In this document: one piece after another, positions 390 through 62,305 of the stretch
Numbering within the stretch: the stretch's first letter is position 1
Layout: every line of letters starts with the position of its first letter
Assembly: GCF_025465545.1 (NCBI RefSeq)
Contig: NZ_JAODMK010000045.1
Location: 1-64,000, forward strand
DNA from: Naasia sp.
Lineage (GTDB): Bacteria; Actinomycetota; Actinomycetes; Actinomycetales; Microbacteriaceae
Direction of reading: 5' to 3'
Length of the DNA: 64,000 bases
Program-made: the position numbers and the translations under genes
Notes under the pieces: generated by a model
Told to the model about the DNA's origin: nothing
What the model saw: only the letters and a program-made list of their open reading frames with translations
The model's database searches: none

Positions 390-432
390 TGGTGCCCCCA
401 GCAAGATTCGAACTTGCGCCCCTGCCTCCGGA
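390..432. other. Probable attachment site (att) in the 3' half of tRNA-Arg
   Basis: Integrases of this class usually use the T arm or anticodon arm of a tRNA as crossover site and leave the tRNA intact. The recombinase gene ends 40 bp from the CCA end, so the att core is expected within the 3' half of the tRNA. The second copy would lie left of the window, so the core cannot be delimited here. Confidence 0.4.
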
Positions 433-464
433 GGGCAGTGCTCTATCCCCTGAGCTATGGGGGC
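390..464 (-). tRNA. tRNA-Arg (anticodon CCG)
   Basis: Read on the minus strand, a complete cloverleaf can be folded: 7-bp acceptor stem GCCCCCA/TGGGGGC, D arm GCTC/GAGC, anticodon stem CTGCC/GGCAG with loop CTCCGGA (anticodon CCG, reading CGG), T arm GCAAG-TTCGAAT-CTTGC, discriminator A and an encoded CCA at 390-392. The 3' end points at the integrase gene, so the tRNA is the probable integration target and has been kept intact. Confidence 0.95.
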
Positions 465-13178: not shown

Positions 13179-14091
13179 CCCCGCTGACCTGCCCAGTTCT
13201 GCCGCAACTCGGCCCCCAGTCGCGGCAGAAGTCGGCAGCTCGGTGGGCGTTCTCCGCCGGCATGCGGTCGAGCTGCTCACTCGCGCACGGGTGCCCTCGG
13301 CGGAGGTCGATGCGGAGCTCCTGATCGGGCACGTGCTGGGCCTCTCCCGCGGCGCCGTCCAGGCCCGTGCCCTCACCGGCGCGGCGGTGTCGCAGGAGGC
13401 GGCGGAGGCGATCATGCGGCTGATCGATCGCCGCGCCGCTCGAGAGCCGCTGCAGCACCTGACCGGTCGCGCAGCGTTCCGCACCCTCGAGCTCTCGGTC
13501 GGGCCCGGCGTCTTCGTGCCGCGTCCCGAGACCGAGTCGGTCGCGCAGGTGGCCATCGAGGCGCTCCGTGCCGATCCGGCGGCTGAGCCCATCGCGGTCG
13601 ACCTGGGCATGGGCAGCGGCGCCCTCGCCCTCGCCCTCGCCGCCGAGGTGCCCCACTCGCGAGTCGTCGGCGTCGAGAACTCACCGCAGGCGTTCGTCTG
13701 GGCGACCCGGAACTTGCGGGAGACCGGCCTCGGAAACGTCCGGATGGTGTTCGCCGACCTCGCGGGTGCGCTGCCCGAGCTCGAGGGCACCGTCGCCGTC
13801 GTCGTCTCCAATCCGCCCTACATCCCGATCGGCGCGATCCCTCGCGACCCGGAGGTGCGGCTGCACGACCCGGAGGCGGCGCTCTACGGCGGCGCGGACG
13901 GGCTCGACGTCGTGCGCAGCGTGTCTGTCACGGGGCTCCGCCTCGTGCACCCGGACGGCGTGCTCGTGCTCGAACACGGCGAGGCGCAGGGCGAAGAGAT
14001 CAGAGAGCTCCTCCGTGCGGACGGCTGGCATGACGCCGCGACTCTGCCGGACCTCACCGGTCGGCCCCGCACCACCACCGCCCGCCGCTGA
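13171..14091 (+). CDS. prmC: Peptide chain release factor N5-glutamine methyltransferase
   Basis: A SAM-dependent methyltransferase that methylates the GGQ glutamine of release factors. It has the helical N-terminal domain ([17 protein letters not shown]...[13 protein letters not shown]), SAM motif [14 protein letters not shown] and catalytic NPPYIP. As drawn it has 306 residues, from ATG 13171 overlapping prfA by eight bases. The first 24 residues are encoded by an inverted repeat and have no counterpart in the family. GTG 13243 ([12 protein letters not shown]) is the alternative start and matches the usual N-terminus better. Neither start has a strong ribosome-binding site. Confidence 0.94.
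13189..13238. repeat. Inverted repeat at the prfA-prmC junction
   Basis: Two nested pairs of arms: CTGCC/GGCAG outside and the perfect 9-bp TTCTGCCGC/GCGGCAGAA inside, with a 16-nt loop. It lies between the prfA stop and the second possible start of prmC (13243), and within the reading frame if prmC starts at 13171. It could be a transcribed hairpin that tunes prmC expression, or a small repeat insertion. Confidence 0.75.
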
Positions 14092-32749: not shown

Positions 32750-33589
32750 GTGACGCAAATCGGGCGCAGCAACTCCGGCCATACGGTGACGGTTCCCCGC
32801 CGTCCCGACATCCAGCTGACCCTCGGCTGGTCGGCGGTGACCAACGTCGGGCGGAAGCGCCAGGTGAACGAGGACAGCTTCGTCGCGCAGAGCCCCGTCT
32901 TCGCGGTCGCCGACGGCATGGGCGGGCACACGGCGGGCGACATCGCGAGCACGGCGGTGGTCACCCGACTCGCCGAGGTCATCGAGACCGACTTCGTCGA
33001 TCCCGACGTGATCGAGCACGCGCTGGCGATCGCGGCTCGGGACATCTCCCGGGTCTCGGGGGAGAGCGCCCTCGGCACCGGCACCACCGTGACGGGGGCG
33101 GCGCTCACCCTCGTCGGCTCGGATCCGTACTGGGCCGTCTTCAACGTGGGCGACTCGCGGGTCTACCAGCTGCGTGGGCGCCTCTTCGAGCAGGTCACCG
33201 TGGATCACTCCGTCGTCCAGGAGCTCGTCGACTCCGGCGTGCTCACCCGCGAGCAGGCGGAGAACCACCCCGACAGCAACGTGATCACGCGCGCCATCGG
33301 ATTCAACGAGCTGCCGGCGCCCGACTACTGGATGATCCCCGTCACCGAGGGGCTGCGGCTCCTCATCTGCTCGGACGGCCTCACCAAGGAGCTCAGTGAC
33401 GACGACATCCGCTCGCACCTCGTCGCCGGCCGCACCGCCCGGGACACCGCGCACGACCTGCTCGACGCGGCCCTGGTCCGCGGCGGACGAGACAACGTGA
33501 CCGTCGTCGTCATCGACGTGCTCGAGACGAGCGGCGACTTCGACCTCGATCAGACCGTGCCGCGGCGGGGCACCGGCCGCCACTCCTGA
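32750..33589 (+). CDS. PP2C-family protein phosphatase
   Basis: A 279-residue soluble Ser/Thr phosphatase. Metal-binding and catalytic motifs are intact: RQVNEDSF, VADGMGGHTAGD, FNVGDSRVYQL, CSDGLTKEL and GGRDNVTVVV. GTG follows GGCAGGAC. It ends in FDLDQTVPRRGTG, a tail that repeats the D-x-T-V pattern of the FHA protein's acidic region. It should reverse phosphorylation by the kinase that follows. Confidence 0.95.
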   Translation: MTQIGRSNSGHTVTVPRRPDIQLTLGWSAVTNVGRKRQVNEDSFVAQSPVFAVADGMGGHTAGDIASTAVVTRLAEVIETDFVDPDVIEHALAIAARDISRVSGESALGTGTTVTGAALTLVGSDPYWAVFNVGDSRVYQLRGRLFEQVTVDHSVVQELVDSGVLTREQAENHPDSNVITRAIGFNELPAPDYWMIPVTEGLRLLICSDGLTKELSDDDIRSHLVAGRTARDTAHDLLDAALVRGGRDNVTVVVIDVLETSGDFDLDQTVPRRGTGRHS

Positions 33590-33623
33590 CGACCGGGCCC
33601 GCGCGGCCCTGACGACCGCATCG

Positions 33624-33675
33624 CTCCGGCCGAACTGCAACGGCGCACGGTTGCGTCGTGGCCGCTCGGTTGCGT
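33624..33675 (+). repeat. Dispersed intergenic palindromic repeat, copy B
   Basis: It lies in the 300-bp gap between the PP2C and kinase genes. The inner part is symmetrical: CGGCC-5-GCAAC-8-GTTGC-5-GGCCG (33627-33664). Over 52 bases it aligns without gaps, at about 75% identity, to the reverse complement of 53571-53622. The rest of the gap (33676-33889) holds a 12-bp direct repeat GGGCGACGAGCG near 33714 and the kinase promoter; no gene was seen. Confidence 0.65.
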
Positions 33676-33813
33676 TCCCTCGGGATCGGACTGCGCGAGG
33701 GGTCAGGGGCGAGGGCGACGAGCGGGGGCGACGAGCGGGTCTGCCCCAGCACTGGGGGATGCGAACTGCGACCGCGCCGGGCAGGGGGCCCCGAAAACGG
33801 TCCAGACCCTGCC

Positions 33814-33889: not shown

Positions 33890-35317
33890 ATGACGCGACG
33901 TCTGCCCTCCACGCCGCCCACGCTCCCCGGCTTCAGCTACGTCCGCGCCCTCGGCTCGGGCGGATTCGCCGACGTGTTCCTCTACGAGCAGAACATGCCA
34001 CGCCGCCAGGTGGCGGTCAAGGTGATGCTCGCCGACGTGGTCAACGACCAGGTCCGTCAGATGTTCCAGGCCGAGGCGAACCTGATGGCTCAGCTGAGTG
34101 CGCACCCATCGATCCTCACCGTCTATCAGGCGAGCGTCTCCTCGGACGGCCGGCCCTACCTCGTGATGGAGCTCTGCTCCGCCACGCTCTCCGAGCGGTA
34201 CCGGCGCGAGCGCCTGCCGGTCGGCGACGTGCTGCGGATCTCGGTCCAGATCGCGAGCGCCGTCGAGACCGCCCACCGCGCCGGCGTGCTGCATCGCGAC
34301 ATCAAGCCCACCAACATCCTCACCACCGCGTACGGGCACCCCGTGCTCTCCGACTTCGGCATCGCGGCCACGCTCGCCGAGTCGGAACGCACCGAGTCGG
34401 TCGGCCTCTCCATCCCATGGTCCGCCCCTGAGGTGCTCATGGACGAGACCGCAGGCACGGTCGCCAGCGAGGTCTGGTCGATGGCGGCCACCGTCTACAG
34501 CCTCCTCGCCGGCCGATCCCCGTTCGAGGTGCCCGGCTCCGAGAACCGCTCCGTCGATCTGATCAGCCGCATCAACCGGGCCAAGCCGGAACCGATCGGC
34601 CGCGCCGACGTCCCCGCCCGCCTCGAGCTGATCCTGCAGCGGGCGATGGCCAAGCGGCCCGAACAGCGGCCGCGCAGCGTCCTGGAGCTGATCCGGGAGC
34701 TGCAGGCGGTGGAGACCGAGCTCGGGCTGCCCCAGACTCCGCTCGAGGTCGCCATGGACGACTGGGCGCTCGCCACCGTCGCCGACCTCGAGGACCGCAC
34801 GCGCATCCGGGGCGTGCCCGCGATCAGCCCCACCGGGGAGCGCCGGCGTCGCCGCTCCCGCGGAGGAGCAGAGGCGGCCGCTGCGGCGTACGCGCCGGTG
34901 GGCACGCTGATGCGCCCGCAGAGCGGGTCAGTCGACGCCGCGAGTGCAACGGGCGCCCCCCAGCCCCGCGGCGTGCAATGGCTGGCGTGGGTCCTGATCG
35001 GGCTCTCGACCCTCGTCATCGCGGTCGGCGCCACGGCCATGGTCTGGCTGATCCGCGACGCCTCGAGCGGCATCCCCCGGGTGACGGACATCTCCGCCGT
35101 GCTGCAGGACGGCGCCGTCCGCTTCAACTGGGACGATCCCGGCCTCGAGGACGGCGACGCCTACGAGATCACCACATCGGACGGCAGCTCCAGCGTGCAG
35201 AAGGACACCGTCTTCCTGGCCGATGCGCGCAGCGGCGGACGCGTCTGCATCAGCGTGACGGTGAACCGGCAGGGCAAGCAGGGCACCCCGAGCAACGAGA
35301 AGTGCGTGGACGCCTAG
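33890..35317 (+). CDS. One-TM Ser/Thr protein kinase with FN3-like ectodomain
   Basis: A 475-residue kinase. The catalytic domain (about 14-285) has loop LGSGGFADVF, Lys44 in QVAVKV, HRDIKPTNIL, DFG in SDFGIA and an activation loop rich in Thr/Ser (SERTESVGLS). A cytoplasmic linker, one transmembrane helix (about 365-388, WLAWVLIGLSTLVIAVGATA), and an 85-residue outside domain follow. That domain has FN3-like spacing (VRFNWDDPGL, YEITTSDG, CISVTVNRQG) and two Cys. It matches Pkb2 of the bifidobacterial PFNA cluster in position. The next gene starts directly at its stop. Confidence 0.93.
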   Translation: MTRRLPSTPPTLPGFSYVRALGSGGFADVFLYEQNMPRRQVAVKVMLADVVNDQVRQMFQAEANLMAQLSAHPSILTVYQASVSSDGRPYLVMELCSATLSERYRRERLPVGDVLRISVQIASAVETAHRAGVLHRDIKPTNILTTAYGHPVLSDFGIAATLAESERTESVGLSIPWSAPEVLMDETAGTVASEVWSMAATVYSLLAGRSPFEVPGSENRSVDLISRINRAKPEPIGRADVPARLELILQRAMAKRPEQRPRSVLELIRELQAVETELGLPQTPLEVAMDDWALATVADLEDRTRIRGVPAISPTGERRRRRSRGGAEAAAAAYAPVGTLMRPQSGSVDAASATGAPQPRGVQWLAWVLIGLSTLVIAVGATAMVWLIRDASSGIPRVTDISAVLQDGAVRFNWDDPGLEDGDAYEITTSDGSSSVQKDTVFLADARSGGRVCISVTVNRQGKQGTPSNEKCVDA

Positions 35318-53061: not shown

Positions 53062-53529
53062 GTGATCATCGACCACTCCTACCGGGTCAGCGTCGAGTGG
53101 ACCGGCAGTCGCGGATCGGGCACCTCGGACTATCGCGCATACGGTCGGGACCACATCGTGCGCGTCGAGGGCAAGCCCGACCTGGCCGGCTCCGCCGATC
53201 GACCCTTCCACGGCGATGCCGACCGCTGGAACCCCGAGGAGCTGCTCGTGGCGGCGCTCAGCCAGTGCCACATGCTGTCCTATCTGCACGTCGCGGTGCA
53301 GAACGGCGTCACGGTGCTGGCCTACCGGGATGTGGCGACCGGGACCATGACGCAGACCGCCGACGGCGGCGGCCACTTCACCTCGGTCACCCTCTCCCCG
53401 GTCGTCGAGATCGCCGACCCCGCCCAGGTGGCGCTCGCCGAGTCGCTGCACGCTCAGGCCAATGCGAAGTGCTTCATCGCGTCCTCGGTGAACTTCCCGG
53501 TGCACCACTCGCCGACCATCCTGGCCTGA
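53062..53529 (+). CDS. OsmC-family peroxiredoxin-like protein
   Basis: A 155-residue protein. The two redox cysteines of the family are in [11 protein letters not shown] and [13 protein letters not shown]. OsmC/Ohr proteins reduce organic hydroperoxides with these Cys. The fold order (N-terminal beta strands with [16 protein letters not shown]-terminal strands) fits the OsmC-like branch rather than Ohr. Confidence 0.93.
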
Positions 53530-53569
53530 CCGGCCCTCGCCCGCCGGTGCCCGCCCTGTCGCCGCGACG

Positions 53570-53631
53570 GACGCAACGGTCCGGCCACACCGCGACGGCA
53601 CGCGGTGGCAGTTTGGCCGGACGGTCGCGTC
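53570..53631 (-). repeat. Dispersed intergenic palindromic repeat, copy A
   Basis: A large imperfect hairpin between the OsmC-like gene and dxr: arms 53570-53594 and 53601-53631 pair over GACGC, GTCCGGCCA and CACCGCG, with a six-base bulge on the right arm and a six-base loop. Its reverse complement matches copy B at 33624-33675. It could act as a transcription end for the OsmC-like gene. Confidence 0.7.
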
Positions 53632-53668
53632 TGTGAGGTGCCGAGGCGGCGGGTGGAAGGATGGTGCC

Positions 53669-54754
53669 GTGCGCCGCCTCGTCCTGCTCGGATCCACCGG
53701 ATCGATCGGCACTCAGGCGCTCGACGTCGTGCGCGCCAACCCGGACCGCTTCGAGGTGGTCGGCCTCGCGGCCGGCTCGGACCGGGAGGGGCTCCGGGCG
53801 CAGGCCGAGGAGTTCGGCGTGAGCGCCACAGCGCTCGGCGCGGAGGAGGCCGCCCAGCTGGTGCGGGACGTCGACTGCGACGTCGTCGTCAACGGCATCA
53901 CCGGATCGGTGGGGCTGGGTCCCACGCTCGCGGCCCTGCGCGCAGGCAGGACGCTCGCCCTCGCGAACAAGGAGTCCCTGATCGTCGGTGGGTCCCTGGT
54001 CACCGCCCTCGCCGCGCCGGGGCAGATCGTGCCCGTCGACTCCGAGCACTCCGCCATCGCCCAGGCACTCCGCGGGGGAGCGGCGGGCGAGGTCCGCCGG
54101 CTCGTCCTCACCGCCTCCGGCGGGCCCTTCCGGGGTCGCAGCCGGGAGCAGCTGCGTGAGGTCACTCCGGCCGAGGCGCTCGCCCATCCCACCTGGGACA
54201 TGGGGCTCGTCGTCACCACGAACTCCGCGACCCTCGTCAACAAGGGACTCGAGGTGATCGAGGCGCACCTGCTCTTCGGCGTGCCATACGAGAGCATCGA
54301 GGTGACCGTGCACCCGCAGTCGATCGTGCACTCCATGGTCGAGTTCGTGGACGGCTCCACCCTGGCACAGGCGTCCCCGCCCGACATGCGCCTGCCCATC
54401 TCGCTCGCGCTGGACTGGCCGGCCCGGGTGCCCGGGGTCGGCGTCCCGCTCGACTGGAGCACGGCGTCCGCCTGGACCTTCGAGCCGCTCGACGCCGCGG
54501 CGTTCCCCGCGGTCGAGCTCGCGAAGAGCGTCGGTCGGGTGGGCGGCAGCCTCCCGGCCGTGTTCAACGCGGCCAACGAGCAGGCGGTCGCGGCCTTCCA
54601 TGCGGGTCGGCTGCCGTTCCTCGGCATCCTCGACCTTCTCGCGGCGGTGATCGACAGCGCCCCCGACGACGACGGCGAGCTCACCGTGGAGTCGCTGCAG
54701 GAGACGGAGGCCTGGGCGCGAGCCGAGGCGGACCGGAGGATCGCGGCCGCCTAG
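53669..54754 (+). CDS. dxr: 1-deoxy-D-xylulose 5-phosphate reductoisomerase
   Basis: A 361-residue enzyme that makes MEP from DXP with NADPH, the committed step of isoprenoid synthesis. It has [36 protein letters not shown], the flexible loop SGGPFRG, and [16 protein letters not shown] 53669 follows GGAAGGA. Its TAG overlaps the stop of the facing kinase gene within a single CTAG. Confidence 0.97.
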
Positions 54755-62201: not shown

Positions 62202-62211
62202 CGAGCGCGCC

Positions 62212-62259
62212 CCGAAACACCGAGCGCGCCCTGGCCACGGGGCGCGCTCGGCGTTTCGC
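62212..62259. terminator. Strong imperfect hairpin between the M50 and ispG genes
   Basis: Arms 62212-62231 and 62240-62259 pair over 20 bases with two mismatches and an eight-base loop; flanks 62202-62210 and 62260-62269 can extend the stem. GAGCGCGCC occurs twice on the left side. No T-run, so it could end transcription from either side or be a palindromic repeat. The rest of the gap besides the LuxR fragment shows nothing else. Confidence 0.55.
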
Positions 62260-62305
62260 GGCGCTCTCGGTGATGAGGTCCATCGGGCGCTCAGCCGCTC
62301 CGGCG

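Follow-up and report, generated by a model that had tools for sequence, protein, structure and literature searches.

Two related palindromes in separate intergenic gaps

The sequence between an OsmC-like gene and dxr in this Naasia DNA is palindromic, and a second intergenic sequence nearby resembles it. What kind of repeat is this, and does the genome encode anything that keeps or spreads it? We analysed the whole stretch of 64,000 nucleotides (hereafter the window) together with the remainder of the Naasia genome (G000) and eight congeneric genomes (G001-G008). An ungapped alignment of 53571-53622 (minus strand) with 33624-33675 (plus strand) gave 39 identical bases of 52 (75%), in agreement with the original prediction. 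The best window 52-mer outside this family, termed here the GCAAC family, reached 30 of 52 in the same comparison. The two copies are real, but the proposed length of 52 bases was too short: a covariance model extended them to 68 bp (53566-53633 and 33611-33678).

Gene calls and Pfam matches confirmed that both copies are intergenic. The first (53566-53633, plus strand; covariance model score 81.5 bits on the plus and 71.7 bits on the minus strand) follows the OsmC-like gene (53062-53529, plus; Pfam OsmC, 4.4e-14), whose stop lies 43 bp ahead of the 56-bp core at 53573-53628, and precedes dxr, the gene for DXP reductoisomerase (53669-54754, plus; Pfam). Its boxes read GCAAC, GCGAC, GTGGC and GTCGC, spaced 19 bp apart in each half around GGCC arms. 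Compared by dxr, the closest named relatives belong to Naasia (Microbacteriaceae), with 84% for Naasia sp. SYSU D00057 and 81% for a Naasia MAG. The second copy (33611-33678, plus; 78.1 bits on the plus and 65.1 bits on the minus strand) has its core at 33618-33673. A PP2C phosphatase gene (32750-33589, plus; Pfam PP2C_2, 1.6e-10) ends 28 bp before this core, and a Ser/Thr protein kinase gene lies downstream (33890-35317, plus; Pfam Pkinase, 3.7e-41). In congener G001, an element is found 18 bp past the stop of the PP2C ortholog (91.6% identity, 215 aa). The PP2C and kinase orthologs of G001 are ~8 kb apart (L190 and L224, at ~92 kb and ~84 kb of G001:C1), and beside each there is a palindrome, the two being of different subfamilies. 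The OsmC-dxr junction could not serve as an orthologous test site; its synteny was absent in all 15 relatives read.

Hairpins had been proposed for both copies. Folding is good in the 53571 copy (z -4.24; opposite strand -3.95), but the 33624 copy folds at the level of its shuffles (z 0.19 and 0.18). Symmetric positions pair at 21 of 28 sites in the former and 16 of 28 in the latter. No stem followed by a T-run was present in either window region, and no sigma-70 promoter was found in the regions of both copies. Rfam at gathering thresholds gave a single match in the whole window, a tRNA at 393-464 (minus).

A dispersed four-box palindrome

A loose pattern derived from the two window copies matched 13 distinct places (14 rows, one place being hit on both strands); read backwards, it matched none in the 2.76-Mb genome. 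A covariance model of 68 positions, which takes base pairing into account, was built from these 13 places. The genome search with this model revealed further copies, and the expectation that two copies in one window imply many in the genome proved correct: the family occupies at least 31 places in 2.76 Mb. This number is a lower bound, 150 of 5672 first-look candidates having been scored genome-wide. The weakest of the 31 copies scored 46 bits; the best other match in 216 kb searched around the copies scored 21. Owing to the symmetry of the element, both strands gave a match at each place.

The core of the family is 56 bp long, 5′-GCAAC-N14-GCAACNG-N4-CNGTTGC-N14-GTTGC-3′, and forms part of a four-box palindrome of 56-68 bp. 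Box starts are 19 bp apart inside each half of the core. Column conservation, judged by eye, shows conserved blocks every ~9-10 bp, suggesting that contacts lie along one face of the double helix.

Distribution in the genus and the family

A generic box pattern with up to three mismatches was found at 30 places in G000, 43 in G001, 31 in G004, 15 in G005, and 33 in G007, and at none in G002, G003, G006, and G008. The reversed control matched nothing in all nine genus genomes. G001, G004, G005, and G007 have the same build as G000 with different arm sequences. G003 carries a diverged version, with five covariance-model matches at E ≤ 0.001. When 398 family genomes were searched with the generic pattern at two mismatches, seven genomes from 2 of 85 genera matched. 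Dispersed copies were counted within the family only.

A gene between matched palindromes

A cross-species comparison of genes adjoining the elements brought out one partner gene, G000:C16:82640-83536 (minus, 299 aa), which lies between two element copies. Elements flank the gene on both sides in G000, G001, and G004. The 299-aa protein had 37 matches in the nine genus genomes, none with stops inside the matched part. Its close clade (E ≤ 1.9e-80, at least 48% identity) comprises members in G000, G001, G003, G004 (two), G005, and G007, i.e., it is present in all six element-bearing genomes and in none of the three element-free ones. G002, G006, and G008 have only remoter paralogs, with 43% identity or less.

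We compared ~350 bp on each side of the gene at 30 of the 37 matches' loci (29 distinct loci, L269 and L275 being identical). The two flanks shared a segment in 29 of the 30, with scores of 19.5-59 vs. 9.5-15 for shuffled flanks. At the thirtieth, G001c, the bracketing pair lies just beyond the ~350-bp flank window, so that all 30 loci are bracketed. Among 406 control genes of similar size, three reached 19.5 or more, all in Frigoribacterium loci; this threshold is the lowest paralog score and was set afterwards. L269 and L275 (G003:C3 and G003:C4) match exactly along their full 3858 bp, including the nuclease gene, either through a large duplication or through an assembly artefact, and because of this identity they are useless for finding the ends of the element.

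The bracketing segments are palindromic, weakly so in G005b (6.8 and 7.6), and the palindrome differs between paralog groups. A direct repeat of the box at 19-20 bp within the half-site (at least 6 of 7 bases on at least one side) was seen in 20 of 29 loci by eye, a count that has no shuffled control. Left and right palindromes of the same gene had a median similarity of 38.5, vs. 8 between paralogs. Across the 28 paralogs compared, palindrome and protein similarity were correlated (Mantel r 0.31, a value reached by 0 of 2000 permutations). The correlation was strong for the 62 same-locus pairs (r 0.86) and absent for different-locus pairs (r 0.08, p 0.14). Gene and palindrome are cognate partners, a pairing that we regard as very nearly certain.

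An AbiEi-type protein with a nuclease half

Sequence comparisons indicate that the protein joins two halves: an AbiEi-type DNA-binding half at the N-terminus and, at the C-terminus, a PD-(D/E)XK nuclease of the DUF559/Vsr-like/EDxHD kind. AbiEi models (PADLOC) matched all 17 aligned members (best 3.6e-17); in the first member, the match covers residues 26-145. Pfam AbiEi_4 was found in 9 of the 17, and the locus A protein, which belongs to the GCAAC palindromes, showed only a weak AbiEi_4 match in Pfam. DUF559 was above cut-off in three members of groups D/E; in the same three, MTES_1575, a restriction-endonuclease-like family, was below it. A profile of five group D/E members matched PDB 3r3p, 'Mobile intron protein' (E 0.0014), which we take to be an EDxHD homing endonuclease. 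Groups A/X/B/C are homologous to groups D/E (hhalign 99.8%, E 3.9e-30, 251 columns), and the locus A protein is called a nuclease because of this homology. Residues D230, E241, D243, and K247 are invariant in 10 of 10 members and E198 is conserved at 90% or more; these are presumably the catalytic residues. The nuclease region is the best conserved part of the protein (mean pair identity 0.50, vs. 0.35 for residues 10-65). A single-sequence structure prediction of the distant homolog L144 had a pLDDT of 31.8. Annotation in four records reads AbiEi-domain or hypothetical protein.

Upstream of its own gene, AbiEi binds a pair of 23-bp inverted repeats separated by 3 bp, and Rv2827c binds two such pairs (PMC7319586). 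In size, these sites come close to the Naasia palindromes. No AbiEii-type (DUF1814) toxin family was found at E ≤ 1e-5 among ten flanking genes of five Naasia loci.

Further palindrome families and their chromosomal loci

On the assumption that every paralog comes with a dispersed family of its own, such families were also expected for the remaining G000 paralogs. The palindrome of locus X, CGGCGGGAAGTG-N14-CACTTCCCGCCG, which is that of the second G000 paralog, was found at 18 places in G000, the two gene-flanking ones included (control 0). A pattern for locus B was derived from a window copy (62202-62269) and from congener flanks. The flanks of the G000 locus B gene fit this pattern with 2 and 4 mismatches by our own count. 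Members of the locus B family were found at 19 places in G000, 75 in G001, 22 in G006, 18 in G004, 18 in G007, 7 in G005, and 4 in G003; there were none in G002 and G008, and the controls gave 0. In G006, the gene whose palindrome bears the locus B box sits at locus C.

The window holds solo palindromes of more than the GCAAC family. The one at 62202-62269 (no strand assigned) is the window's best palindrome, has CGAGCGC boxes of the locus B type, and is matched in its inner part; it fits the locus B pattern with one mismatch (our own count; the 19 places of G000 are given as a total). It lies in the gap ahead of a GcpE gene. A palindrome at 13180-13247 (no strand assigned; score 19.6), flanked by a release-factor gene and a PrmC-like gene (Pfam), is a probable solo member of the locus D family, judged by its likeness by eye to the palindrome flanking G001d (L278). 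Locus D nuclease genes occur in congeners; none was among the G000 loci read.

In G001, CGAGCGC palindromes also recur in tandem arrays with 225-bp and 272-bp units (L332, G001:C1:759600-761300; L334, G001:C1:2465800-2467100), inside which a tandem-repeat finder reported a period of 19. The G001 locus B nuclease gene (L273, G001c) has an apparent frameshift in its N-terminal third, despite the 75 palindrome copies of that genome; the frameshift could be a sequence error.

The paralogs occupy chromosomal sites that are shared between species. In G000, locus A has a 2-oxoglutarate dehydrogenase-type gene and a CNNM/CBS gene as its neighbours, locus X lies between two IMPDH-family genes, and locus B is flanked by the genes for topoisomerase IB and ribosomal protein S10. 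Locus X is occupied in all nine genus genomes. At loci A and X, flanking sequence aligns between species over ~1.1-1.4 kb at ~79-88%; divergence is much more rapid in the gene and in its palindromes than in these flanks.

Homologs beyond the genus

In genus g32, a matched palindrome pair was clear in 5 of 11 homologs and unclear or absent in 6. Two genes in that genus, L280 and L281, lie between GCAAC/GCAGC palindromes like those detected by the family-wide pattern search. The homolog in a named Microbacteriaceae MAG (L144) also has a matched pair. In an Actinomycetota sample, homologs were present in 41 of 246 genomes, G000 included. We read 29 of the phylum loci: 18 passed the flank score, 9 had a clearly palindromic segment by eye, and 20 had no clear matched palindrome pair. 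Four of 72,556 plasmids carried a homolog. The association of gene and palindrome is strong in the genus and partial elsewhere.

Position of the copies relative to genes

Placement was determined for 103 elements, comprising 31 from G000, 43 from G001, and 29 of the 31 from G004; genes were called by a codon-usage script trained on the window. The gaps of 97 elements could be classified as convergent (48), tandem (36), or divergent (13). Background gaps of at least 60 bp, taken from the window and 80 named loci, were convergent in 56 cases, tandem in 235, and divergent in 138. Elements are therefore enriched in convergent gaps (48 of 97 vs. 56 of 429). A gene 3′ end is faced by 88 of the 103 elements at a median distance of 20 bp. 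The same siting near gene 3′ ends is described for REPs by Di Nocera et al. (PMC3733652). For two of the 103 elements, a gene was called on one side only.

None of the 31 G000 elements overlaps a called gene. Four of the 103 overlap the end of one, all in G001 (L191, L192, L209, and L220), and some of these may provide the stop codon. At two further G001 sites, L193 (1958 and 2036) and L207 (1969 and 2058), a subfamily A and a subfamily B palindrome share a gap as neighbours, at distances of 22 and 33 bp.

In some orthologous gaps, an element is present in two or three species, each time with species-specific sequence. There were 11 element pairs with both neighbours orthologous, and the gene locus itself accounts for 3 of them. 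Given the preference for convergent gaps, this sharing amounts to a modest excess, as judged without a computed expectation.

Tests for copying, pairing and target-site duplication

Copies that differ by 1-2 mismatches of 56, variable positions included, occur at different sites, and in subfamily G001B conservation falls 2 bp beyond the core. Near-identical copies and the sharp G001B edge favour copying within the genome over selection alone. Elements 39 and 72 of G001 are identical but were not counted as copying of the palindrome: the neighbouring gene is also 100% identical, which indicates a longer duplication.

We compared the complementarity of the two halves, with copies in one orientation, against shuffles. 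Of 1000 shuffles, 499 reached the observed value in G000, 926 in G001A, and 444 in G001B. It exceeded the shuffles in G004A and G004B (6 and 7 of 1000), a signal perhaps due to a mixture of sub-subfamilies. Because complementarity is at the shuffle level in three of five subfamilies, the halves for the most part resemble a duplex recognition sequence present twice rather than a stem kept by pairing. An RNA or cruciform hairpin under pairing selection was likewise unsupported in these three.

Target-site duplications were sought for k = 3-9 at offsets of 0-11 on both sides. None rose above shuffled pairs in 103 copies, a test that is weak without empty sites. The best excess, 9 vs. 3.3 expected, was taken as chance because about a thousand combinations were tried. 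A search with PF01797 for a REP-type (Y1, RAYT) transposase gave no match in any of the 9 genus genomes, and matches in 5 of 14 controls. The GTAG tag was absent by eye from the 13-copy consensus and from the five subfamily consensuses. Only the G000 consensus has GACG (complementary to CGTC), at one of its ends; the other four subfamily consensuses lack it. The gene situated between two copies is an AbiEi/nuclease gene and no known transposase. The suggestion of a REP/MITE-like family therefore holds in part: the repeat is dispersed, intergenic, REP-like, and present in many copies, but neither a REP-type transposase nor a target-site duplication was found.

A site and its probable enzyme

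The repeat probably represents one side of a partnership of the REPIN/RAYT type with an unrelated enzyme, as the solo form of the site of its cognate protein. The protein is encoded between two copies of a symmetric 56-68 bp site that is also dispersed as solo copies. Its AbiEi half would bind the boxes, which at 19 bp apart would lie on roughly one face of the duplex; that this half binds the palindromes is very likely. The nuclease would nick or cut at or near the site, and repair would then copy the palindrome to new intergenic places and homogenise the copies in the genome. Spreading by the enzyme seems moderately probable; cleavage, copying, and the direction of copying are inferred.

More broadly, we lean slightly towards an undescribed class of sequence replicator in this genus and in the wider Actinomycetota, in which an endonuclease at a fixed locus spreads its own four-box palindromes and rewrites them as its specificity changes. 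Under such rapid co-divergence, the nine species would mostly carry different enzyme-palindrome versions at one locus, locus X. Several results weaken the view that the enzyme replicates its site. A duplication signal is missing. For G001A (17 copies) and G004A (21 of the 29 copies used from G004), no cognate gene is present at the loci read, which cover all but 2 of the G001 matches and 1 of the G004 matches. The correlation of palindrome with protein is absent across different loci, 6 of 11 g32 loci and 20 of 29 phylum loci lack a clear pair, and the matched repeat of G005b is weakly palindromic. Furthermore, an active double-strand nuclease with dozens of cut sites per genome would be dangerous.

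The palindromes might instead be immobile binding sites of the AbiEi-nuclease, kept by the host at gene ends and tracking protein specificity by selection. Their functions could be gene-end regulation, nucleoid organisation, checking of a defence nuclease, or the marking of self. AbiEi is an autoregulator that binds inverted repeats by its own gene (PMC7319586), and both the narrow position of 88 of 103 copies (median 20 bp from a gene 3′ end) and the orthologous gaps occupied in two or three species with species-specific sequence speak for such sites. However, copies that lie at different sites and differ by 1-2 mismatches of 56 point to copying, the repeats stand on both sides of the gene and not only at its promoter, and copy number among congeners ranges from 0 to 75. 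We consider this alternative unlikely, although clearly less remote than the following two.

The siting of the copies also speaks for recurrent bidirectional transcription terminators or mRNA 3′ hairpins: convergent gaps are enriched (48 of 97 vs. 56 of 429) and most copies lie close behind a stop codon. The terminator proposed in the original prediction is unsupported, since neither window region has a stem with a T-run, arm changes are non-compensatory in three of five subfamilies, and one window copy folds at chance level. Moreover, divergent gaps hold 13 of 97 elements (our own gene calls), and terminators would leave the bracketed nuclease genes unexplained; we regard them as highly improbable. 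An equally slim chance is given to a classical REP/REPIN moved by a Y1 (RAYT) transposase, or to a MITE of an undetected IS. Dispersed intergenic palindromes by gene 3′ ends are described for REPs (PMC3733652). Against this origin are the PF01797 result (0 of 9 genus genomes vs. 5 of 14 controls), consensus ends that lack the GTAG tag, and the missing duplication signal; compensatory changes are at the shuffle level in three of five subfamilies, while REPIN hairpins commonly show them (PMC3116915).

These findings link a different class of enzyme to its own repeat families through bracketing, presence and absence, co-divergence within loci, and two confirmed predictions. An unexplained gene family gains a function that is directly testable, and the many natural protein-DNA specificity pairs can be used to study how recognition changes.

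Comparison with known systems

In the open-licence full text of PubMed Central, we found no description of AbiEi/DUF559 genes bracketed by dispersed palindromes. The Vsr-like/EDxHD homing endonuclease of PDB 3r3p is related to the Naasia nuclease domain by profile (groups D/E, E 0.0014), and the Naasia genes likewise sit at fixed loci beside conserved genes. In contrast to that system, no intron or intein was seen at the Naasia genes, which are bracketed by palindromes that also disperse without the gene.

AbiEi of the type IV toxin-antitoxin system (AbiE; Rv2827c) shares the AbiEi-type domain with 17 of 17 members and has inverted repeats of similar size upstream of its own gene (PMC7319586). 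However, the Naasia proteins carry a C-terminal nuclease half where AbiEi has its antitoxin domain, no AbiEii-type toxin family was found among the ten flanking genes at five loci, and the Naasia palindromes also lie downstream of the gene and are dispersed genome-wide.

CGTC-tagged REPs resemble the Naasia repeat in being palindromic and intergenic and in lacking a RAYT; they apparently have no dedicated transposase (PMC3733652). According to the same source, they are 20-40 bp long, carry CGTC at one end, and occur mainly in Alphaproteobacteria, whereas a GACG end is found in the G000 consensus only. For GTAG-type REPs, RAYT transposases are the proposed movers, and other REPs have no known partner (PMC3733652).

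The REP/REPIN-RAYT systems have a similar mode of life. They likewise combine (PMC3733652 and PMC3116915) short dispersed extragenic palindromes, mostly past gene 3′ ends, with a single-copy enzyme gene that is flanked by its own repeat and has a largely species-like tree, and some genomes hold several enzyme-repeat pairs. The Naasia enzyme differs in being AbiEi plus PD-(D/E)XK, with no Y1 domain found, and its site differs in being a 56-68 bp four-box duplex palindrome that has no GTAG and, in three of five subfamilies, no compensatory pairing. Because the defining RAYT enzyme and the GTAG tag are absent and a kept hairpin is at best partial, what is new here is the pairing of this enzyme class with this repeat; the mode of life is familiar and REPIN-RAYT-like.
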